64,000 nucleotides of DNA, taken from the NCBI GenBank assembly GCA_951828385.1, contig OX639973.1, positions 4,765,200 through 4,829,199 of the forward strand. Reading direction: 5' to 3'. Position numbers and translations under genes: made by a program. This DNA comes from an uncultured Poribacteria bacterium. GTDB lineage: Bacteria > Poribacteria > WGA-4E > WGA-3G. This document shows positions 11,779 to 23,652 of the stretch, one piece after another (position 1 is the first letter of the stretch; each line of letters starts with the position of its first letter). The notes beneath the pieces were generated by a model, which ran no database searches, was not told the DNA's origin, and worked only from the letters and a program-made list of their open reading frames with translations.

Positions 11779-12621
11779 TTAATGTTTAGTCCAACACCCT
11801 TCTGTATACGCCTTGCGATCAAATAACTTCTGGCGGAACGGTGTTGCCTGCGCCATCCATTCCTCAGGGATCTCCTGCGTGTAACGATGCGGTGGTCCTG
11901 CCTCTTTGAAAATGTCTATAGCGAAGATACGATAGAGCTGCGGCGAGTCCAAAGGTTTCGCCTCGGCGGCGTGGAAGATACGGGCATCGATGTAGACCAT
12001 GCTACCCGGTGGCAATTCCAACCGTTTCTCTTCCAATGGACGTCCGGCTTCCGCGTCATAGTCACCGGCGAGCATCCGTTCTGGTGTCGCCTCTTTCGTC
12101 GGTGCTACCTTATGGCTGCCCGGAATAACTTTGAGATTTCGATCCCCACGTGTGAACCCGTTCGGATAATACAGAATCTGGATATAGTAATTATCGCGTT
12201 CAGCGAGGTTAATAGGATTCTCATGCTTCCAGTGATGATGGTCTTGGTGAAACCCAAGAGGGCCGACCCCGCGAGGTGCTATGTTGAGGGCGGAGTGACA
12301 GAAGTGGTACGCATCGCCAATGGTAGCGCATATCAGTGCCGTAATAAAAGGATCATCGATAAGCCGATCGCTATATTTGCCTCGGTCGTTCCACGGACGA
12401 ATAAAATAGGTGCGTTCGGGTTTATCACCGTTATTCAACGTCTCAATGTACTGACGCGTCGGTTCAAAATGCTGTGTAATCTCCTCAATCAGACCTTCTC
12501 TGCCATCGTCCGTTAGCACGTCCGGATAAGCGATGTAGCCGTCGTTGTGAAAAGAATCGATATCCGCTTGCGATGGACCTGATAATCGGAAAAGTGAATC
12601 AATTGTAGTAGTGGCTTTCAT
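11779..12621 (-). CDS. Phytanoyl-CoA dioxygenase (PhyH) family protein
   Basis: 280 residues. H-x-D is in LGFHQDHHHWKHEN, the distal His in ARIFHAAEAKPL and the 2-oxoglutarate-binding Arg in QLYRIFAID. Ile-Pro-Gly-Ser-His (VIPGSHKV) is a family block. GGAG precedes the ATG at 12621. First gene of the minus-strand operon with two sulfatases and a lactonase, which suggests it oxidises a breakdown product of the same sulfated compound. That link is inferred from position only. Confidence 0.9.
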   Translation of the reverse strand: MKATTTIDSLFRLSGPSQADIDSFHNDGYIAYPDVLTDDGREGLIEEITQHFEPTRQYIETLNNGDKPERTYFIRPWNDRGKYSDRLIDDPFITALICATIGDAYHFCHSALNIAPRGVGPLGFHQDHHHWKHENPINLAERDNYYIQILYYPNGFTRGDRNLKVIPGSHKVAPTKEATPERMLAGDYDAEAGRPLEEKRLELPPGSMVYIDARIFHAAEAKPLDSPQLYRIFAIDIFKEAGPPHRYTQEIPEEWMAQATPFRQKLFDRKAYTEGCWTKH

Positions 12622-12764: not shown

Positions 12765-12986
12765 ATGGTGCAAAATCTAAACCGTATCACTTTTGACCCC
12801 GAAGTGATGGGGGGCAAGGCATGTATTCGCGGCATGCGAGTCACCGTCAGCACGGTTGTTGGCTTGGTCGCTTCTGGCTATTCCAATGCTGATATTCTGA
12901 AAGCCTATCCCTACTTAGAAGAAGATGATATCCACCAAGTTCTTAACTATGCTGCATGGCGAGTTCAAGAAGCGGACGACGTATAG
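12765..12986 (+). CDS. DUF433 family protein (antitoxin-like), orphan
   Basis: 73 residues that read through as a DUF433 domain: R-I-T-F-D-P, M-G-G-K-A-C-I-R-G-M-R-V-T-V, then I-L-x-A-Y-P-Y-L-x-x-x-D-I and the terminal A-A-W-R. DUF433 proteins are small winged-helix DNA-binding proteins usually encoded with a DUF5615 PIN-like toxin. No such partner is found here: the next gene is a converging sulfatase six bases away. So it is an orphan antitoxin or a solitary regulator. ACAGGAG lies before the ATG. Confidence 0.85.
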   Translation: MVQNLNRITFDPEVMGGKACIRGMRVTVSTVVGLVASGYSNADILKAYPYLEEDDIHQVLNYAAWRVQEADDV

Positions 12987-12991
12987 CCTTC

Positions 12992-14464
12992 TTACATCCG
13001 ACTGTGTCCCTCCTGCTGAAATCTTTCCAGCAACGCCGTCAAGCGTTCCACAATTTCTGGATACGTTTCCCATACGTTGTTCGTTTCACCCGGATCGTCG
13101 TAGATATGATACAGTTGCCCCGGCGTATCCGGTTTGGGACCGCCATCGCGAGGCGGGGGCCAGCCACCCGAACCTTGTGTTCCCAAGATCAATTTCCAAT
13201 CACCGTGCCGGATAGAGAAAACACCTGTACTGGAATGGTGCACAATAGCTTCCCGCAAAGAACGTTCTATCTCTTCACCCAGTAACGCGGGCAAAATGTT
13301 GCAACTGTCCTGTCCAGCATCGTCTGGCACTTCCGTCCCGACAATCGCTGCGCAGGTCGCCATCAGATCGGTGAGACAGGTTAACGTATCGGTTTCGGTA
13401 TTCGGTGCGATAACACCAGGCCATCGGGCTATCAGCGGTTCACGATGACCACCCTCCCAGATATGTGCCTTGTAACCACGCCAGTCGCCGCACGATTTAT
13501 GATCGTAGAGATGATACGGCATCGGGCTGTTATCTCCCTGAATCCTGTCACCGGGCAACGCACCATTATCACTCGTGACAAAGATGAGTGTCTCATCGGT
13601 TTTACCGGTGCGGTCTAACGCATCCATAACTTCACCGACCATCCAATCCACAAGCCATACCAGATCACCACGGGGACCGGCATTACTCTGCCCGCGTGCG
13701 AAGTCTGGAACGACTGCCTCTGTGCAAGGTTCGTGCGGTGCAGAAGGGGTCAGATAGAGGAAGAAAGGGGCATCCGCGTCGGTTTGCCCTTCAATATATT
13801 CGACGGCTTTCTGTGCTATAATCGGATCCGCATCCTTATGCTCCCACCCTGGGGTCATCATACCGGGACGGCTCGTAAACTCTGGCACTTCGTGATAGAC
13901 ATTCGGGATTTCCACAAAAGTGTCATTCTCAATAAACCCGTAAGGTGGCTGGCAGGTCGGGCAACCCGAATTCCCGTAAAAATAGTCAAACCCAATATCC
14001 ACGGGACCACCAGTGAGTGGCGCGGCAAAATCAATATGCTCCTCTAACTCACGTCCTGCATTAGACCAAGGCAGCGGCGCATTGAAATCGAAGTCGTATC
14101 CTTGCACCGTCGAAAATCCGAGTCCTAAATGCCACTTGCCGATACAGGCGGTATTGTACCCCGCATCTTTTAGCAATCCTGCGACTGTCAAGCGTTCAGG
14201 TTCAATAAGCGGTGGTTCGTACCCATAAAGCACACCATGTTTGAGACGACTTCGCCAGCAATATCGACCTGTTAAAACGCCGTAGCGGGTCGGTGTACAG
14301 ACAGCGGAAGGGGAATGTGCGTCCGTAAAACGGATGCCCTCCTGCGCGAGCTTGTCCATATTCGGGGTAGGAATCTTTGAATCTGGGTTATAGCAGCCGA
14401 CATCCCCGTATCCCATATCGTCTGCCATGATAAAGACAATGTTTGGAGAAGTGCGTGTGTCCAT
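12992..14464 (-). CDS. Sulfatase (arylsulfatase A-like)
   Basis: 490 residues from the ATG at 14464, which has AGGAG upstream; the longer frame to 14497 lacks a ribosome site and family homology. MADDMGYGDVGCYN supplies the metal Asp pair. The formylglycine motif is Cys56-T-P-T-R60 in SAVCTPTRYGVLTG, with Thr in place of Ser as in many eukaryote-like sulfatases. GKWHLG follows at about residue 110 and FVTSDNGA holds the later metal site. Closer in layout to N-acetylgalactosamine-sulfatases than the tandem pair at 8456/10151; the substrate is not evident. Confidence 0.92.
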   Translation of the reverse strand: MDTRTSPNIVFIMADDMGYGDVGCYNPDSKIPTPNMDKLAQEGIRFTDAHSPSAVCTPTRYGVLTGRYCWRSRLKHGVLYGYEPPLIEPERLTVAGLLKDAGYNTACIGKWHLGLGFSTVQGYDFDFNAPLPWSNAGRELEEHIDFAAPLTGGPVDIGFDYFYGNSGCPTCQPPYGFIENDTFVEIPNVYHEVPEFTSRPGMMTPGWEHKDADPIIAQKAVEYIEGQTDADAPFFLYLTPSAPHEPCTEAVVPDFARGQSNAGPRGDLVWLVDWMVGEVMDALDRTGKTDETLIFVTSDNGALPGDRIQGDNSPMPYHLYDHKSCGDWRGYKAHIWEGGHREPLIARWPGVIAPNTETDTLTCLTDLMATCAAIVGTEVPDDAGQDSCNILPALLGEEIERSLREAIVHHSSTGVFSIRHGDWKLILGTQGSGGWPPPRDGGPKPDTPGQLYHIYDDPGETNNVWETYPEIVERLTALLERFQQEGHSRM

Positions 14465-14502: not shown

Positions 14503-15621
14503 CTATTGTAATTTCGCCTTTAATTCGGCGAGGTCTTTGTCAATCGATGCGTCTTCTGCGTAGTTTGAGAATTCACGATGCAATTTCACATCTGTGAACG
14601 CTACATCCACCTCAGAAGCCGCACGTGCTAAGGCAGCAGCTTCAGTTACGTTCTCTTCCACTTTCCTAAGAATCTCAAAAGCCTTGCTATCTTGGAGCTC
14701 TGTCAATGCTTGGTGGAGGTGTTCCTGAGCATCAACATTGGTGTGCTGTGCGATGACTTGATCCCTTTTTCTTTCTGTCTCCTCGGTTTTTTGCTGCAGC
14801 GTTTCAAAGAGTGTTGTGAGATGTGCTACAACCCGTTTCTGTTCATCCCATTGGGCTTTATAACTGCTAGCGAGGCGTCGGTATTCATTCCGTTGCGCTA
14901 AATCTTCGCGGGCGAGATCCTCGCGTCCGGCTTCGATAGCAATCATTGCCCGCTCTTCACATCGTTCTGCCTGTACAATCGCTCCCTCGTGGGCGTTTTG
15001 AAACTGTTTTTCAATCCCAACGGAGGCATCAACCTTCTGTTTCGCTTCCGAAAACCGATTGGTGATTTCATGGATGACATCGCCTAATACCTTTTCCAGA
15101 TCAGTTGTTGCGGCTCTGGTTTTAACCGTAGACTCGGTTTCACCTTCAGTTACAAATTCAACGGATTTCGTGTCTAATTTGACAACAACGGTCTTAGCAA
15201 GCTTATCACCCATCCGCTGTTTCTCTCTTCCGGTGGCAAACAGCCAGTCAACGGGTTGGAATATGCCTGCAAAACGACGGACGAAGGCATCTTTAAAATT
15301 CGCGGGTTTTCCATCCTCCAAACGGATTGTCTGTAGCGATAAAAGTCTCTTTCCAAACCCACCCCCTTTTTTGACACCATCCATGAAAAACAGACCGAAT
15401 CCCCACAGAATAAAACTTAGAGTCCCGACACTCACCGATGTCATGTTTGATGCGTCATGAAAGCCTCTAAGACTATCAAAAATCTCAAATAGCACAAAAC
15501 CGCTAAGAATCAAAATGGCTTGGCAGAGACCCAAGAATCCTATATCTAATAAAAACGCACCCAGTCGCGTCCATCGGGATGCTAACTTGAATTTTTTACC
15601 CGCAACCTTAATAATAGACAT
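14503..15621 (-). CDS. RDD membrane domain fused to PspA/IM30-like coiled coil (copy 1)
   Basis: 372 residues. Residues about 1-150 form an RDD-family membrane domain: early A-S-R-W-T-R-L-G-A-F-L-L-D, two hydrophobic helices, G-F-G-K-R-L-L-S-L-Q, a V-R-R-F-A-G block and M-G-D-K-L-A-K-T-V-V. Residues about 170-372 match the PspA/IM30 helical hairpin: L-E-K-V-L, A-K-Q-K-V-D-A-S, G-R-E-D-L-A-R-E-D-L and A-Q-H-T-N-V-D-A. The start at 15621 matches the two paralogues (xxxIKVAGKKFK). Inferred role: membrane-anchored envelope-stress or membrane-remodelling protein. Confidence 0.85.
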   Translation of the reverse strand: MSIIKVAGKKFKLASRWTRLGAFLLDIGFLGLCQAILILSGFVLFEIFDSLRGFHDASNMTSVSVGTLSFILWGFGLFFMDGVKKGGGFGKRLLSLQTIRLEDGKPANFKDAFVRRFAGIFQPVDWLFATGREKQRMGDKLAKTVVVKLDTKSVEFVTEGETESTVKTRAATTDLEKVLGDVIHEITNRFSEAKQKVDASVGIEKQFQNAHEGAIVQAERCEERAMIAIEAGREDLAREDLAQRNEYRRLASSYKAQWDEQKRVVAHLTTLFETLQQKTEETERKRDQVIAQHTNVDAQEHLHQALTELQDSKAFEILRKVEENVTEAAALARAASEVDVAFTDVKLHREFSNYAEDASIDKDLAELKAKLQ

Positions 15622-15717
15622 CGTTGGAAACACCGCCTTCTGTATTAGAATTTGCGCTTGCTGAAAAAGATGGTAATGCGTGCTACGCGTCGGTTTCAGA
15701 AGAAAAGTAAACTATGA

Positions 15718-16023
15718 TCAGCCCTCTTCTTCATCCGCGTCTGTTGGTGGTTTTGATGGCAATTGCGGCGGGAAGATAAGCGTATCGGTTGTGGACAATT
15801 GTTTATGCGTTTTCAATACCGATTGCAGTTCCTCGTAGAATTGCTCACACTCTTCTTTCGTGCCAATCAACTCTATGCTCGGCGAGTTTGACAGATTAAT
15901 ATGTAACTCATACTGACGATGTCTCCCTCTGATTATCTTGATCTGATGGACATACTCAATATTCACCATCCCGCGATAAGAGTTCTTATACCTTTCATCC
16001 GGATTGATGATCTCAATAAACAT
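15718..16023 (-). CDS. Small protein of unknown function within the RDD-PspA cluster
   Basis: 101 residues with no family I recognise. The first 75 residues look beta-rich (YRGMVNIEYVHQIKIIRGRH, YELHINLSNSPSIELIGT), recalling a small PH-like fold, then an alpha segment (KEECEQFYEELQSVLK). The tail is proline-rich and acidic, ending DADEEEG. GAAAGGAGC precedes the ATG. It lies 24 bases after one RDD-PspA gene and about 100 before the next on the same strand, so it is probably co-expressed and may partner them. Confidence 0.65.
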   Translation of the reverse strand: MFIEIINPDERYKNSYRGMVNIEYVHQIKIIRGRHRQYELHINLSNSPSIELIGTKEECEQFYEELQSVLKTHKQLSTTDTLIFPPQLPSKPPTDADEEEG

Positions 16024-16047
16024 TACGAAGCTCCTTTCGGCTTTTTT

Positions 16048-17127
16048 CTACTGAACTTTTGCTTTTAACTCGGCAAGATCCTTGTCGAGCGATGCTTCTT
16101 CAGCGTAACCCGCGAATTCGCGCGCTAATTCCGTGTCTTGGTATTCAACATCTACCTCAGCAGCAGCTTTCGCCAAAGTGGCTGCCTCCGTCGCGTCCTG
16201 CTCCATCTTTGCCAGCGTCTCAAATGCCTTGCTGTCTTGTATCTCTTTCAGCATCTCTCGCAGATGCGTTTCCGCATCAACGTTTCTGTGTTTCGCGACG
16301 ATCGCTGTTTTTTGACCTTGTGCCTCCGTCATCTTCTGCTGGAGATGTTCGAGGAGGTCGCTAAGGGATCGGACGGTCTGTTGCTGTTCTTCCCACTGTG
16401 TTTTATATTCGTCTGCCAGTCGCCGGTATTCATTCCGTTTTTCCAAATCTTCGCGCGCCAAATCCTCACGTTCGGCTTTCAGAGAAATAACGGCGCGATC
16501 TTGCCACCGATCCGCTTGCATAACTGCGCCTTCGTAAGCATCTTGGAACTGTTTTTCAACCCCAATAGAGGCATCAACCTTCTCGCGCGCCTCTGTGAGA
16601 CGGTTTTTCATTTCAGCAATGGCATTCTCTAAAACCTTCTCTGGGTCTTCGGTTTCAACTTCAGTCTGTTCCGGTTCCGGTTCAAATTCCACAACAACCG
16701 TCTCCGCGAACTTATCTCCGAGCCGTTGCTGTTTTTTACCCAGAGACCAGAGTAAGTCAATCGGTTGGAGGAGACCCGCGAAACGGCGAAGAAAAGCATC
16801 TTTAAAAGTACACGGTTTGCCATCTTTCAAACGAAGCACTTGTAGGGACAACAACTTCTTTCCTATGCCCTGCCCCTTTCTGATGCCATCCATAAAAAAC
16901 AGACCGAATATCCACAAAGCAAGACTGAACAGAGAGATAAAGATCATGAATCCAATTCCAGTTACCCAAGCACTTTCATTGAAAAACAGGACTGCTGCAA
17001 ACGAAACAAAAAATGCTAAAATTGATTGTGCGGTACCGATCAGTGCGACATCTATGAAGAAGGCGTATAGCCGTGTCAGTCGGGATGCTAATTTGAATTT
17101 TTTTCCTGCAATTTTGATAGACTTCAT
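16048..17127 (-). CDS. RDD membrane domain fused to PspA/IM30-like coiled coil (copy 2)
   Basis: 359 residues. RDD part about 1-150: A-S-R-L-T-R-L-Y-A-F-F-I-D-V, helices at about 22-50 and 55-80, F-F-M-D-G-I-R-K-G-Q-G-I-G-K-K, L-R-R-F-A-G-L-L-Q-P and L-G-D-K-F-A-E-T-V-V. A Pro/Glu-rich linker (EFEPEPEQTEVETE) leads to E-D-P-E-K-V-L, the exact opening of PspA-family coiled coils, followed by R-E-D-L-A-R-E-D-L and V-A-K-H-R-N-V-D-A. The classical amphipathic N-terminal helix of PspA is absent and seems replaced by the membrane domain. Middle gene of three. Confidence 0.87.
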   Translation of the reverse strand: MKSIKIAGKKFKLASRLTRLYAFFIDVALIGTAQSILAFFVSFAAVLFFNESAWVTGIGFMIFISLFSLALWIFGLFFMDGIRKGQGIGKKLLSLQVLRLKDGKPCTFKDAFLRRFAGLLQPIDLLWSLGKKQQRLGDKFAETVVVEFEPEPEQTEVETEDPEKVLENAIAEMKNRLTEAREKVDASIGVEKQFQDAYEGAVMQADRWQDRAVISLKAEREDLAREDLEKRNEYRRLADEYKTQWEEQQQTVRSLSDLLEHLQQKMTEAQGQKTAIVAKHRNVDAETHLREMLKEIQDSKAFETLAKMEQDATEAATLAKAAAEVDVEYQDTELAREFAGYAEEASLDKDLAELKAKVQ

Positions 17128-17186
17128 CTGTGAATCCTAAAAAATCTTTTGTGTTTGTCCGGTGCCCGCCGGATGAACTTTTGTTG

Positions 17187-18377
17187 TTATAATTTGGCTT
17201 TCAATTCAGTGAGGTCTTTGTCAAGTGATGCCTCTTCGGCATAACCCGAAAATTCACGTTCCAGTGCCACATTTTGATATGCGACATCGGCTTCAGCTGC
17301 CGCCTTTGCCAAAGTGGCTGCCTCCGTCGCTTTTTTCTCCATATTCGCAAGTGTCTCAAACGCTTGGTTGTTTTGTATCTCTTTCAGCGTCTCGCGGAGA
17401 TGCACTTCGGCATCAATATTTCTGTGTTGTGCGACAACAGTCGCCTTTTTCCCTTCCGCTTCCATGGTTTTCTGCTGGAGATGCTCAAGGAGGTCGCTAA
17501 GGGCTTGGACAACCTGTTCCTGTTCTTCCCCTTGCTTTTTGTACTGGGCTGCTAATCGCTGGTATTCGTTACGTTTTCCGAGGTCTTCCCTTGCCAAATC
17601 CTCTCGTCCTGCCTTGAGGTTAATAATAGCACGCTCTTGCCATCTTTCCGTTTGGGCGACAGCACCTTCATAAGCATTCTTAAACAGTTTTTCGACCCCT
17701 ACAGAGGCATCAACTTTCTGGCGTGCATCTGAAAGCCGGTTTGTCATTTCAACGATAGCATTCTCTAAAATTTTCTCAGGATCTTCGGTTTCGGCTTCAG
17801 TCTGTTCCGGTTCCGGTTCAAATTCCACAACAACCGTCTCCGCTAACTTATCTCCCATCCGCTGCTTTTTTTCTCCGAGTGTCCAGAAAAAATCCAATGG
17901 TTGAAAGATGCCTGCAAGTCGGCGAACAAAAGAATCTTTAAAGGAGCAGGGTTTACCATTTTTCAATCTCAGCACTTGTAGCGATAGCAGCTTTTTGCCG
18001 GGGCCCTGTCCATCGCCGAAGCCATCTATGAAAAACAGAACAGCTGCCCCTATTGCTGCACCGCCCCATAGTAGCGTGTCTAAACCATAGTTCAGCCACG
18101 GTCCGAAAAGAGCAATTATAGACATTTGCACGAGAGGGAACGCGCTTTCATCGGCAACTTGGGTTATTTTAGTTTTAGGACCCAGTGTCCACAGCAATGC
18201 ACTGAGCAATCCAATCCGAATAAGACTCGGACCAATACCAGAACCCATTGCATGAAACAGAAAAACCAAAATTGATAGCACACCTGCTACGAGCATGCCA
18301 TCTATGAAAAACGCGGATAACCGCGCAAATCGGGATGCCAATTTGAGTTTTTTCCCTGCTACCTCAATAAACTTCAT
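17187..18377 (-). CDS. RDD membrane domain fused to PspA/IM30-like coiled coil (copy 3)
   Basis: 396 residues from the ATG at 18377, chosen because its N-terminus MKFIEVAGKKLKLASRFARL aligns with the two paralogues and AGGAGG lies upstream; the frame runs on to 18500 without homology. The RDD region is about 40 residues longer, with an extra hydrophobic stretch (FPLVQMSIIALFGPWLNYGL). The linker EFEPEPEQTEAETE and E-D-P-E-K-I-L open the PspA-like part, with G-R-E-D-L-A-R-E-D-L and A-Q-H-R-N-I-D-A. First gene of the cluster, 59 bases before copy 2. Confidence 0.87.
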   Translation of the reverse strand: MKFIEVAGKKLKLASRFARLSAFFIDGMLVAGVLSILVFLFHAMGSGIGPSLIRIGLLSALLWTLGPKTKITQVADESAFPLVQMSIIALFGPWLNYGLDTLLWGGAAIGAAVLFFIDGFGDGQGPGKKLLSLQVLRLKNGKPCSFKDSFVRRLAGIFQPLDFFWTLGEKKQRMGDKLAETVVVEFEPEPEQTEAETEDPEKILENAIVEMTNRLSDARQKVDASVGVEKLFKNAYEGAVAQTERWQERAIINLKAGREDLAREDLGKRNEYQRLAAQYKKQGEEQEQVVQALSDLLEHLQQKTMEAEGKKATVVAQHRNIDAEVHLRETLKEIQNNQAFETLANMEKKATEAATLAKAAAEADVAYQNVALEREFSGYAEEASLDKDLTELKAKL

Positions 18378-18513: not shown

Positions 18514-19572
18514 CTACAGTGTTGGCACTGTCACCGCGACTTCGCGTCCACCCGCATTTGAGGAATCAATAACCCCTTGAATGATAACATTCGTAAGCAT
18601 AACACCGTACGGATCAATCGGCGCAGGTTTCCCCTCGCGGACAGCGTCAATAAACGCCGAATCTTCTTCGTGGAATACACTTACAGATTCAAACTTGGTG
18701 AACTCTTGATCAAAAATCTCTCCGTCTTTATCGCCATAGACGCGTACGCCTTCCTCTGGGCCACGGACCTCGCCAATACCGAGCCGTAATCCCGCTTTTT
18801 TGCCGAGGAAGATGGTGCCACCGAGCGAATCCATGTTCATGCACCAGCACGTCTTGAAGACCATACGCGCACCGTTCTCGAACACCACCCAACCGACACC
18901 AAAATCTTCGACTTCAGTCTCTTTAAGCGCAGGGTTCCATGTATTGTGCAAACTCAGGTAGTTAGAGGTGATACCGGAGACCGCAACCGGTTTCGGGTGT
19001 CCCATCAGATAGAGCGCAGTGTCAAGTGCATAGACACCGATGTCCGCAGACGCACCTAAACCTGCTGTCGCCTTTCGGATAAAACTGCCGCCGGGGTTCC
19101 CGCGCCGCCGATCCGCGACGGTCTCAACGTAGTAAATATCGCCGAGTGTGCCAGCATCAACGATCTCTTTTGCCTTAATCACCTGTGGCGAATAACGGAG
19201 TTTCAAGCCGACCATCAATATCTTATCGTTTTCTTTTGCGGCGCGCCACATTGAAGCAGCAGCGTCCAACGTCGCTTCCATCGGCTTCTCACAGAAAACA
19301 TGTTTGCCCGCGTTCAGGGCAGCGACTGTCGGCGCGGCATGCACACCTGTAGGCGTACACACGTACACCGCCTCAATCTCGTCCATTTTGAGCATTTCGT
19401 TGTAATCGTTGAACGTGCGTTTAATGCCCCACCGTTCTTTCGCGCGTTCAAGGTTTGCAGGGACAAGGTCGGCGGCGGCAATAATTTCAGCACCTTTAAC
19501 ATCAGCAAGTGTGCCGCAGTGCGCCTGTGCAATACCCCCCGCCCCAATCAAGCCTAATTTAACTGTTCGCAT
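18514..19572 (-). CDS. Gfo/Idh/MocA family oxidoreductase
   Basis: 352 residues. The N-terminal Rossmann motif G-L-I-G-A-G-G-I-A-Q-A-H binds NAD(P), and H-V-F-C-E-K-P-M (about residue 95) has the catalytic Lys of the family. The C-terminal alpha/beta domain includes GLGASADIGVYALDTALYL, with the D-x-G-x-Y block. Two ATGs lie close together; the one at 19572 is six bases from GAGGAG, while the upstream one overlaps that site. Members oxidise sugars, inositols or related polyols; the substrate is not readable here. Confidence 0.9.
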   Translation of the reverse strand: MRTVKLGLIGAGGIAQAHCGTLADVKGAEIIAAADLVPANLERAKERWGIKRTFNDYNEMLKMDEIEAVYVCTPTGVHAAPTVAALNAGKHVFCEKPMEATLDAAASMWRAAKENDKILMVGLKLRYSPQVIKAKEIVDAGTLGDIYYVETVADRRRGNPGGSFIRKATAGLGASADIGVYALDTALYLMGHPKPVAVSGITSNYLSLHNTWNPALKETEVEDFGVGWVVFENGARMVFKTCWCMNMDSLGGTIFLGKKAGLRLGIGEVRGPEEGVRVYGDKDGEIFDQEFTKFESVSVFHEEDSAFIDAVREGKPAPIDPYGVMLTNVIIQGVIDSSNAGGREVAVTVPTL

Positions 19573-20052
19573 TTCCATCTCCTCGTTACGTATTGTATGC
19601 TTTTGATTTTAATGCATTTCGCCTTTAGAAGTCAAGGGAAAATTGTAGTCGTTTTCGGTTGTCCAGGGGTATTTAGTTTTACATATTTACTTTATATCAC
19701 GACCTGTGCTAGATAATTTTGTTTTATAGCGTTTTGCTTATGCGCGAACATGGTCTTTGAGTTTCATCAAAGAACGTTCCAAACATTGGTCCACCGAGGG
19801 ATCGAGAAAACAACTAGCACAAGTCGTTTATATCCGTGACTATTATTCCACTGTAGGAGCGAGCTGTGCTCGCGATATTGCGTCCAAACCTTAACATCTG
19901 TCAACAGAAACCCTGATCGGTTGTTGGTGGGGCGTATAAATCTTTTGTCAGTGAATTGTCAGAATCAGGATTTGCAGGATTGTAAATAGCAGTTAGCAGA
20001 TAGCGATGAGCGGTTGGTATATGTATGTTGCTTTCACACAGTATAAAAGTAT
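19573..20052. other. Intergenic stretch with MITE-like sequences
   Basis: No convincing gene. CAGGGGTATTTAGTTTT at 19664-19680 is a solitary end of the repeat family seen complete at 56054. An element with its own inverted ends follows at 19694-19833. A short palindrome GCGAGC-TGT-GCTCGC lies near 19858-19872. Confidence 0.5.
19694..19833. repeat. MITE-like element with terminal inverted repeats
   Basis: The left end reads ATATCACGACCTGTGCTAG and the right end, reverse complemented, ATATAAACGACTTGTGCTAG. That is about 140 bases between imperfect inverted ends with no coding capacity. Confidence 0.5.
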
Positions 20053-20151: not shown

Positions 20152-20526
20152 ATGCGAAATAAGCGGAACACTCTGTGTGGAATATTAGGAATTTTCTTTG
20201 TCCTTTCTGTTGTCCTTATGGCATCAGGTCAACCGGCACCATCGGACTCAGGAGTTATAACAGTCACCGAAAAAATAGATGTAGGGGAGCTAAACAGAAA
20301 TGTGAGGGACTTGAGCAAAAATATGAAGGAGCTAAGCGAAAATCTGAAGGAGTTAAACAAGAACGTCCAAGAACTTAACAAACAGTTTGCCAGACTTGAT
20401 GAAAGGACAAAATTGCATTCTAATTTACTTTATATACTTATAGCGGGAGTTTTCGGCATCCCATTGACGCGAGTACTATGGTCTACATTCAGACTTCCCA
20501 CAAAACCGCATCAATCTCCGCCATAA
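20152..20526 (+). CDS. Small exported or membrane coiled-coil protein
   Basis: 124 residues from the ATG at 20152, which has AGGAG seven bases upstream; an in-frame upstream ATG lacks one. Residues about 5-27 are a signal peptide or first membrane helix. Residues about 40-85 are a heptad coiled coil built from repeats of the form x-x-L-[SN]-K/E-N-[VLM]-K/R-E-L. A second hydrophobic stretch (LLYILIAGVFGIPLTRVL) follows. No family recognised. Its last 38 bases overlap the end of the converging restriction-modification gene. Confidence 0.7.
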   Translation: MRNKRNTLCGILGIFFVLSVVLMASGQPAPSDSGVITVTEKIDVGELNRNVRDLSKNMKELSENLKELNKNVQELNKQFARLDERTKLHSNLLYILIAGVFGIPLTRVLWSTFRLPTKPHQSPP

Positions 20527-23500
20527 CCCCAAGTGTCTCCGCAACAGCCACCAAAATCGCACGATACTGACGCACGTCTTCATAACGCAACACCTCACCG
20601 CGCCGATCCTTCAACCACTTCTCACACACCTGATATGCACCGATTTCATATTCCCATACTGCCTCGGGGACATCCGTGAAATGCTGGGTAGCGTTAATCC
20701 AGACCTTACCCTCCACATACTGCAATTTTGATACAACGCCATCGCCTTCACCTTCAAACCGATGCAGTGCTGGAATCTGTACATCTTTTAGGAGATGCCA
20801 ATCCATCAACCGCTGCCCCAACGTAGCAAGTGCGCGGAAATGTTCAATATCCTGTGGCAAGGGGATACGCGGGAAGTCGTATTTTAGGAAATCATAGTAG
20901 CGTTGGCGGTAGATGGGACTATACAAGATTGCATAGATATAGGCGAGGATATCCTCTGGTGAGATACCTTCGGGGAGGTTAAATGGGGCGGTCTGCGGGA
21001 GTTCCAACGCCTCCGAAAGTGCAGTGAGAAAGGCAGGTTTGAAATTGAGTGAACGCTCTGTCTCAAGCCCCAATTCCTCTGGATTTGGATACAGGTAGAG
21101 CGGGAATACGTGTCCTGATTCGCTGGTTCTGTTAGAGATGTAAGAAACTTCGGTGATTTTATCAGTTATCAAAGCATGTTGCCAAACTGGACTTTTGACA
21201 ACACGACAGACACAGAGTGCCACATTTTCTGAAAGTAGATGTGGCATAACCGTAGGACGAGGCATACAATGAAAACCTCGCGATTGCCCAGTGTAATAGG
21301 TCCAGCGTGTGTCATACGGACGATAGTGAATAGGTGAGATATGCTGTTCTGCATTCGGATGGTTACGAAGATCCGCTTGGGCAAGGTGGATTTGCCAATC
21401 TCGGCTATCTCTTGGCAGCCTGTACCTTTCCCGTGCTTCATCTACAGAAAAGGAAACAAAATCCGTTACCGTTTCGCGCACCTCTTCAGCAGTCCGATGG
21501 ATTGTCAATTTGTCTCGTGCAGTGACAACACCAATTGAACTGGTTTGGAAGATGGCAGTAATTTTCCATCCTATTTCATATTCTGCTCGCGCTTCTACCT
21601 TTTGCGGCACAAAAAGATAGTCCGGTGATGTAGGTTGCAATTCATGCCATTCAGTGGTTTGGGTATCGCTCTCCGAAAGGGTGTTGTATTTCGCCTCGCG
21701 GGATCCCCACATATCAGCGTAATAAACTTTTGCCATCGTAGGATTATCGCGATGCTTAACACATAACACAATAGACACACCTTGCATTATGTCAAAAACA
21801 TTTTCATCTTGTTCCGTCAAAGGGATTGCTTCTGTTCTTCTGTTACTCCCATGTAGGTTGAGAAGATAGATAGCATTGAAACTCTCTAAAAGACTTTGGC
21901 GCATACCTCGAGCGGTAGCCGCGTCAAGGAAATTATTATTGACAATATAACCGATTACACCCTCGCCATTCTTATCAATTCGCCACTGTGCCCATCTAAT
22001 AAATTTCACATAATCATCTTGAAGTGCTCTTGGATTTCTCTCACGGATCGGTTCTCCATTAACCTGTCCATACTCCTTAATGAGTTCGCCAATAAAAGTT
22101 AAATTTCCATCAACGCGGTTTGGATTAGCAGAATGGATTTTATAAGGCGGATTGCCGAGGATAACAAGCAGTGGTTCATCACGTTTTACCGACAACGCTG
22201 CATTCGCCTCGTCGGTGATAAACTCCGCAAAGGGTAACGAGGGCTGCATTTCCGACGGTTGCTCTAAGGTATTCGTGAGATAGATACCGAGGCGTTCATC
22301 TGCATGCCACCCTTGTGCCTGTAAAAACAGCCCCAACTTCAGATGCGCGATGGTATACGGCGCGACGAGCAACTCAAACCCAAAAATCCGCTTGACCAGT
22401 TCAGCGTTGACATACTGCTGCCACGCCGCAGTACCATAGGTTTGTGTCACTGATTCCTGAATATGTTCCAACACCCTCAACAGAAAACCGCCAGTCCCCG
22501 TGGCAGGGTCAAGGATGAGCGTATTTTCATCTGCAAGCCCATCCGGTCTGTTCAACTCCGTTTTCAGCAGACTATCCACCGACCTGACGATGTAGGAGAT
22601 AACCTGCAGCGGTGTGTAGTAGACACCCCGATCAACGCGACGCTGCGGATCGTATTCAGCGAGGAAGGTCTCATAGAAGTGGATAACCGGATCTTCGAGA
22701 TGATTCCCCGCAGTAAACGCTGTTCGGAGCATCGCAGTCGGGACATTTCGGAGAAGCCCCGAAATCTCGTCCAGAATATAGGTGACGTTTGCCTCAAGCC
22801 TCGGTGAGGCGATATGATGAAAGAGTTCAATGAGAAACGGGTTTGATCTCGGCAGTGCATCTACAGCGGTGCGTCGCGAGAAGTTCGTGGCGTTCGGCAG
22901 TGTGCAGCGCGCCGCAAATAACCCATAAGCGAGGGTTTGTGCATACATATCCGCAAAATCGTCGAGGGTCAACGTAGACAGGAGGAGTTCCTTGAACGCC
23001 GAGAACATCCTATAAATATCGCTACTTTCATCAGCGAGCGTCGTAGCAACCTGCGTCTGTAGTTCCCGCGTCCGTCTGGCGAGGTATCTCGCGAGTGCCT
23101 CTGGGGTGGTAATCTGGACGGGTTCAGCATTTAGAAACCGATATAGTAATGTCTCAAAACTGCCCGTTCCATCTTCTACACTCGCCTCTGCGCGCAGGCG
23201 ACCTTCTGTCCACAACTGGAAATTGACGAAATTGGTGAGAATGAAGTTATCCAGATTTTTAATAAAACGTGCGTTCTGTTCTTGGGCGTGTCCTGTGAGA
23301 CTGTTCAGGTCTCTACCGTATCTTTCTGCCTCAATATAACCGATGGGCAACAAGCCATCCATTGCCACAAAATCGGGTCTCCCAATCTGATCCAATCGCC
23401 TCGGTTCTTGGACGAACCGTATCGTGTTTCTGCGAAAATGCGCAACGGAGACTTCCTCAAGGAAGGCTTGCAGGTGTGGAAATAAAGAAAGTTCTGGAGT

Positions 23501-23569
23501 TGCTGCTGCGCTCTCTTGTGTGTGGCGTATCTTCTGTAGATAAAGGTTACAACGTGTTTGAAAGTGCAT
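20489..23569 (-). CDS. Type IIG (ISP-like) restriction-modification enzyme, N6-adenine methyltransferase
   Basis: About 1026 residues. Near residues 65-82 a PD-(D/E)xK-like nuclease motif is present (G-R-P-D-F, then I-E-A-E). SAM-binding motif I D-P-A-T-G-T-G-G-F lies at about 354-362 and catalytic motif IV N-P-P-Y at about 473-476, as in N6-adenine methyltransferases. The rest is probably the target-recognition region. No helicase domain, so it is a single-chain type IIG layout rather than full type ISP. The frame reaches 23629, but that ATG lies inside a short repeat; MHFQTRC at 23569 is the better start, without a clear ribosome site. Confidence 0.85.
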   Translation of the reverse strand: MHFQTRCNLYLQKIRHTQESAAATPELSLFPHLQAFLEEVSVAHFRRNTIRFVQEPRRLDQIGRPDFVAMDGLLPIGYIEAERYGRDLNSLTGHAQEQNARFIKNLDNFILTNFVNFQLWTEGRLRAEASVEDGTGSFETLLYRFLNAEPVQITTPEALARYLARRTRELQTQVATTLADESSDIYRMFSAFKELLLSTLTLDDFADMYAQTLAYGLFAARCTLPNATNFSRRTAVDALPRSNPFLIELFHHIASPRLEANVTYILDEISGLLRNVPTAMLRTAFTAGNHLEDPVIHFYETFLAEYDPQRRVDRGVYYTPLQVISYIVRSVDSLLKTELNRPDGLADENTLILDPATGTGGFLLRVLEHIQESVTQTYGTAAWQQYVNAELVKRIFGFELLVAPYTIAHLKLGLFLQAQGWHADERLGIYLTNTLEQPSEMQPSLPFAEFITDEANAALSVKRDEPLLVILGNPPYKIHSANPNRVDGNLTFIGELIKEYGQVNGEPIRERNPRALQDDYVKFIRWAQWRIDKNGEGVIGYIVNNNFLDAATARGMRQSLLESFNAIYLLNLHGSNRRTEAIPLTEQDENVFDIMQGVSIVLCVKHRDNPTMAKVYYADMWGSREAKYNTLSESDTQTTEWHELQPTSPDYLFVPQKVEARAEYEIGWKITAIFQTSSIGVVTARDKLTIHRTAEEVRETVTDFVSFSVDEARERYRLPRDSRDWQIHLAQADLRNHPNAEQHISPIHYRPYDTRWTYYTGQSRGFHCMPRPTVMPHLLSENVALCVCRVVKSPVWQHALITDKITEVSYISNRTSESGHVFPLYLYPNPEELGLETERSLNFKPAFLTALSEALELPQTAPFNLPEGISPEDILAYIYAILYSPIYRQRYYDFLKYDFPRIPLPQDIEHFRALATLGQRLMDWHLLKDVQIPALHRFEGEGDGVVSKLQYVEGKVWINATQHFTDVPEAVWEYEIGAYQVCEKWLKDRRGEVLRYEDVRQYRAILVAVAETLGVMAEIDAVLWEV

Positions 23570-23589
23570 AAGCAGCAAGGTTTGTAGTA

Positions 23590-23652
23590 GCGCAATTCTG
23601 CGGCGTACTCGCCCAAATGCAACGTGCATTATTGCGCATTGCGTAAGTCCTA
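23590..23652. repeat. Hairpin repeat with 30-base module and ACTTACGCAA-type end
   Basis: GCGCAAT and ATTGCGC flank the module GCGGCGTACTCGCCCAAATG (continuing CAACGTGCAT, 23600-23630). GCGTAAGTCCT follows directly. The same module occurs at 40721, 40753 and 43022. It lies immediately upstream of the type IIG gene and probably carries or disturbs its leader. Confidence 0.6.

Follow-up and report, generated by a model that had tools for sequence, protein, structure and literature searches.

How a PspA-type protein can hold on to a membrane after losing the helix that normally attaches it is the question raised by three tandem genes in a 64,000-nucleotide stretch of contig OX639973.1 (here called the window), from an uncultured Poribacteria bacterium. 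PspA is a bacterial protein related to ESCRT-III, whose members remodel membranes, and the attachment and bending of membranes by PspA/Vipp1 through helix alpha0 and a basic hairpin is an active topic of study. In the genes described here, an integral RDD domain stands where alpha0 would be.

Fusion of an RDD domain to PspA alpha1-5

The three open reading frames lie in tandem on the minus strand. Gene C (17187..18377; 396 aa), the first in transcription order, has AGGAGG ahead of its ATG at 18377; its RDD domain (~17829-18377) carries an insertion of ~40 aa with extra hydrophobic segments, and its PspA alpha1-5 region covers ~17190-17792. Gene B (16048..17127; 359 aa) is made up of an RDD domain (16687-17127), an acidic linker (16657-16686), and PspA alpha1-5 (16051-16656). 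Gene A (14503..15621; 372 aa) probably starts at ATG 15621 rather than at GTG 15633 and comprises RDD (~15166-15621) and PspA alpha1-5 (14506-15105). Judged against the curated Pfam cut-offs, all three genes match both RDD (PF06271; E = 3.8e-12, 8e-14, and 3e-11; 44-52 bits versus a cut-off of 24.1) and PspA_IM30 (PF04012; E = 2.9e-18, 4.4e-20, and 1e-22; 66.7-81.3 bits versus 33.9), so the fusion proposed by the sequence-only reading is real. The PspA_IM30 match begins only at profile position 19-23 in each of them; helix alpha0 is therefore absent, and its place is taken by the RDD domain and linker, as had been proposed. The linker had been called Pro/Glu-rich, which describes two genes (~10-15 aa, acidic, EFEPEPEQTE..) but not gene A, which has a longer linker without Pro enrichment. 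The PspA signatures quoted as retained hallmarks are present in some copies, but in gene A EDPEK is replaced by TDLEK and AxHRN by AQHTN; moreover, AxHRN and GREDLAREDL are fusion-specific versions, found where the ordinary PspA proteins of Poribacteria read ARQKRA and EDLAREAL. The description of three diverged paralogues holds, the other copies being 57-70% identical to gene B and conserved in relatives. These proteins are RDD-fused derivatives of PspA, not ordinary PspA.

A sequence search of the PDB matched the PspA half to solved PspA/Vipp1 structures (E 4e-16). An AlphaFold model built with 47 sequences (mean pLDDT 68.5, pTM 0.33) has helices at residues 16-48 and 55-79 in the RDD part, together with shorter helices and strands, and in the PspA part a hairpin of alpha1 (162-217) and alpha2/3 (221-293), with pLDDT mostly 84-96 to about residue 270, followed by a low-confidence C-terminal helix (302-358). 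Because pTM is 0.33 and confidence is weak beyond ~283, the relative placement of the domains and alpha4/5 are unproven in the model. When the model was submitted to Foldseek, the top 17 PDB matches were all Vipp1/PspA, with weaker matches to chemoreceptors, Asgard ESCRT-IIIB, and Snf7. The C-terminal half is thus predicted to have the alpha1-alpha5 fold of the ESCRT-III superfamily, with confidence for the alpha1-3 hairpin only. The RDD domain is predicted to cross the membrane twice, its N-terminus is rich in Lys/Arg, and basic residues follow helix two; the model, hydropathy, and positive-inside charge suggest that both termini are cytoplasmic. The longer hydrophobic region of gene C has perhaps four segments, which would keep the parity.

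A 101-aa protein belonging to no Pfam family is encoded between genes B and A (15718..16023, minus strand). It is predicted to form five beta strands and one C-terminal helix, and a Foldseek search with it returned nothing below E 0.03, the best match (E 0.036) being a weak PH-like resemblance. Its gene occurs in 28 of 57 family genomes, all of one genus, and lies at the array in 14 of them and elsewhere in the genome otherwise. The suggestion that this small co-encoded protein is a partner in the system is weakened accordingly, and we rejected it as an obligate partner.

Distribution, origin, and genomic setting

A search of other genomes for the same fusion had been proposed along with the sequence-only reading. 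With carriers defined by a match at E ≤ 1e-40 to a fusion model, a phylum-wide genome search found that in the window's family 55 of 58 genomes carry the fusion, in three genera and at 1-4 copies (the exceptions are G027, G065, and G071), and in 0 of 26 Poribacteria genomes of other families, which have only a separate PspA (matching from model position ~131-160 on) or a separate RDD. It was absent from the plasmids searched and from 1081 genomes of three other phyla (288 of Verrucomicrobia, the phylum of L127; 398 of Pseudomonadota, that of L125; and 395 of Bacteroidota, that of L124), the Pseudomonadota search giving no match of any kind above threshold; we therefore rejected the idea that this is a widespread architecture. 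A scan of genome contigs from 84,980 species, made with RDD motifs only, returned the fusion from Poribacteria alone.

Most of the 26 other Poribacteria carry an ordinary alpha0-bearing PspA (MSIFxRISxxFKANVN...EDPEKM), adjoined in at least one sister-family locus by a CesT/Tir-like gene. No canonical alpha0-PspA was found in the window's family, whose sole stand-alone PspA is divergent and lies beside an ABC transporter gene, and G071 gave zero matches to the ordinary-PspA profile; a whole family of sponge-associated bacteria thus appears to be without ordinary PspA. The divergent, family-specific PspA (L078:6983-7660 and L146-L157) lies directly next to two genes, one for the ATPase of an ABC transporter and one, of large size, for a putative permease, an arrangement conserved in the genomes examined. 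In two sister-family loci (L066 and L155), two different PspA-type genes were seen by eye around one large flotillin-like gene and one NfeD/YqiJ-like gene.

A PspA-domain tree places the 47 fusions in a single clade (100/100) containing two old sets of paralogues, and their RDD halves likewise form one clade (100/99). Since both halves are monophyletic, the trees indicate a single origin of the fusion; the stem in the PspA tree is long (1.03), which carries a long-branch warning and leaves the exact sister group unsure. Gene A is the oldest-diverged paralogue type, and other genera of this family have it too. Taken half by half, the three genes have dN/dS ratios of 0.07-0.40, and per whole gene the ratio is 0.09-0.22; both halves are under purifying selection. 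Within the genus the flanking oxidoreductase is 94-99% identical and the fusions roughly 65-93%; the array is thus evolving more quickly than the DNA around it. The two halves of gene B differ in dS against G005 (0.17 and 0.70), a sign that paralogues may have exchanged sequence.

Nearest to the fusion RDDs in the tree is the RDD of a 507-aa protein with a possible zinc-ribbon start (L118:2461-3981), encoded in a genome of the same genus as the window, and single-domain RDDs with the fusion-type N-terminal signature (I-E/K-V/I-A-x-K...L-A-S) occur in a sister family (L067). Sister-family Poribacteria also encode a MacB/FtsX-type ABC permease with a C-terminal RDD of the same subtype (L119-L123:1693-3405; PF12704 + PF02687 + PF06271), and a 476-aa ORF in a Bacteroidota sample (L132:562-1992; G794) reads as an RDD followed by a signal peptidase I-like region. 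Judging from these sequences, the subtype looks like an exchangeable, general membrane module.

The surroundings of the array are conserved. A GFO/IDH/MocA oxidoreductase gene (18514..19578, minus strand), 88-99% identical, is the fixed upstream flank in all three genera; a sulfatase gene whose product has no obvious signal peptide (12992..14464, minus strand) is the fixed downstream flank, and a PhyH-family dioxygenase gene (11779..12621, minus strand) is the next conserved gene downstream. The order oxidoreductase, RDD-PspA (1 to 4 copies), sulfatase, PhyH dioxygenase is shared by the three genera, with the block interrupted in places by transposase-like or other genes; transposase-like ORFs lie inside its oxidoreductase-to-sulfatase part in two relatives (L054:11442-12620 and L056:6255-7346). 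G065 and G071 have a clean empty site, with the sulfatase ~60-70 bases after the oxidoreductase, and the outgroup G049 has both genes in the same order with 2.2 kb of unrelated genes between them. The oxidoreductase-sulfatase linkage therefore does not need the fusion, and as G065 and G071 have neither the array nor a canonical PspA, the function of the array is dispensable. At 25 loci, compared by similarity to the window's genes and by eye, no gene for a regulator or partner of the phage-shock (Psp) response (PspF/B/C, Lia, CesT/Tir, or flotillin) was recognised beside the array. Locus scans placed predicted promoters at chance level and terminators slightly above it, with nothing decisive on operon structure. 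Elsewhere in the window, a 73-aa ORF (12765-12986, plus strand) looks like an antitoxin-like protein of the DUF433 type; its counterpart in relatives is followed by an ORF of ~125 aa (MKFLIDMNLPPEW...), a possible toxin-antitoxin-like pair by the array that varies among genomes. A 1046-aa protein (20489-23629, minus strand) reads as an adenine-specific DNA methylase or restriction-type enzyme.

Membrane attachment and candidate functions

Membrane binding by IM30 involves alpha0 and the basic alpha1-3 hairpin (PMC12636044), and tubulation by Synechocystis PspA requires alpha0, although alpha1-5 by itself still makes rods (PMC12358876); a PspA without alpha0 would therefore need another attachment to act on membranes. 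In the fusions the second element has changed too: every one of the 47 has an alpha2/3 net charge of 0 to -6, compared with +5 to +8 in ordinary PspA (nine Poribacteria sequences) and +1 to +7 in three PspAs from other phyla, a shift that, the 47 being kin, represents one or a few evolutionary events and not 47. Both known lipid-binding elements of PspA are thus gone or altered, and the lack of alpha0 combined with a neutral or acidic alpha2/3 fits the RDD domain having taken over membrane attachment. Two further residues differ: near the alpha3/alpha4 junction, in the hinge region, the fusions have Glu for a Gly that ordinary Poribacteria PspAs conserve, and an alpha3 Arg conserved in ordinary Poribacteria PspA is Asn. 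Of the claim that the system is ESCRT-III-like, the fold part stands, but the basic alpha2/3 face and near-hinge Gly of ordinary PspA are changed, and remodelling by the fusions is accordingly not to be assumed.

The reading we favour, at a probability of roughly 0.55, is that the array encodes a PspA-type scaffold permanently anchored in the inner membrane, which it would help to maintain. The RDD domain, with its N-terminus inside and its two transmembrane helices and amphipathic helices, would fix the protein in the bilayer and keep the alpha1-5 coiled coil on the cytoplasmic side, next to the inner leaflet, standing in both for the missing alpha0 and for the basic alpha2/3 face. The PspA halves of the tandem paralogues would then be expected to assemble on the membrane as a scaffold lending support to the bilayer (envelope maintenance), making the fusion a possible one-chain counterpart of Bacillus subtilis PspA and its separate membrane proteins YdjG/YdjH. 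A more ambitious and distinctly tentative version is that up to four RDD-PspA paralogues form a transmembrane-anchored ESCRT-III-type polymer that has displaced ordinary PspA in the family and has no soluble pool; the Gly-to-Glu and Arg-to-Asn changes mean that polymer assembly may be altered or lost. The hetero-oligomers suggested by the sequence-only reading are likewise hypothetical.

Those same changes, with the acidic alpha2/3, would also fit a PspA half that no longer remodels membranes and is instead a coiled-coil tether, anchored by the RDD domain, to which partners in the cytoplasm bind (the oxidoreductase, the sulfatase, or the 101-aa protein may be among them). The linkage to the first two, fixed in three genera, agrees with this, but they lie near each other without any array in G049 and are adjacent in G065 and G071, and the 101-aa gene is often away from the array; we consider a tether unlikely. 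We give no better odds to the proposal that the RDD domain is the working part, in ion or small-molecule transport or in sensing, with the PspA half only clustering or gating it. R19, D26, and the C-terminal D138 are invariant in 47 of 47 fusions, and the R-to-D spacing of 7 matches R35/D42 of the RDD protein of Halobacillus andaensis, for which Na+/H+ antiport has been claimed, but antiport by that protein does not depend on R35 or D42 and the required residue is D158, four residues past D154 (PMC5996927); at the counterpart of D158, placed by spacing alone, two of the window's genes have E142 and the third has K. The transmembrane part, moreover, is the most variable stretch of the fusions, and the presence of the same subtype on MacB and on a signal-peptidase-like protein makes it look like a general membrane module. 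That the genes are a neutral by-product of tandem duplication or an artefact of assembly or gene calling is contradicted by the results: stop codons or contig ends disrupt a small number of copies (G029, G073, and G010), but the same continuous fusion recurs across dozens of independent assemblies, single-contig chromosomes among them, with dN/dS well below 1 in both halves.

The family offers a natural experiment in which alpha0 has been removed, the hairpin changed, and a transmembrane domain supplied, which would separate membrane attachment from scaffold formation.

Comparison with known systems

The closest known relatives are PspA/IM30 (Vipp1) proteins (PF04012), with which alpha1-alpha5 of the fusions is colinear with few gaps and matches in sequence and fold; the fusions differ in having an integral RDD domain instead of alpha0, an acidic and not a basic alpha2/3, changed near-hinge Gly and alpha3 Arg residues, and tandem paralogues. 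The RDD family (PF06271), which includes the H. andaensis antiporter and B. subtilis SppI, shares the RDD domain with the invariant R/D/D, and SppI is an example of an RDD protein whose C-terminal part is functional; in the fusions the C-terminal part is PspA, and the antiport residue D158 is not conserved by spacing. In B. subtilis the membrane proteins YdjG/YdjH anchor PspA (PMC8581546), so that the PspA-YdjGHI system resembles the array in using integral membrane protein(s) to keep PspA in place, with separate proteins there and a single polypeptide here; no YdjG/H/I genes were recognised beside the array.

The sequence-only reading knew of no described system with this fusion, and in the openly accessible literature searched we likewise found none, nor any paper linking RDD with PspA or Poribacteria with PspA. 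Within the phyla and literature covered, the RDD-PspA combination is found nowhere but in one Poribacteria family. A survey of PspA homologues, in whose text RDD appears nowhere, puts fusions at <2% of homologues and describes PspA-PspAA, PspA-NlpC/P60, and tandem PspA (Ravi et al. 2024, PMC11237479); compared with these, the partner here is N-terminal and transmembrane.
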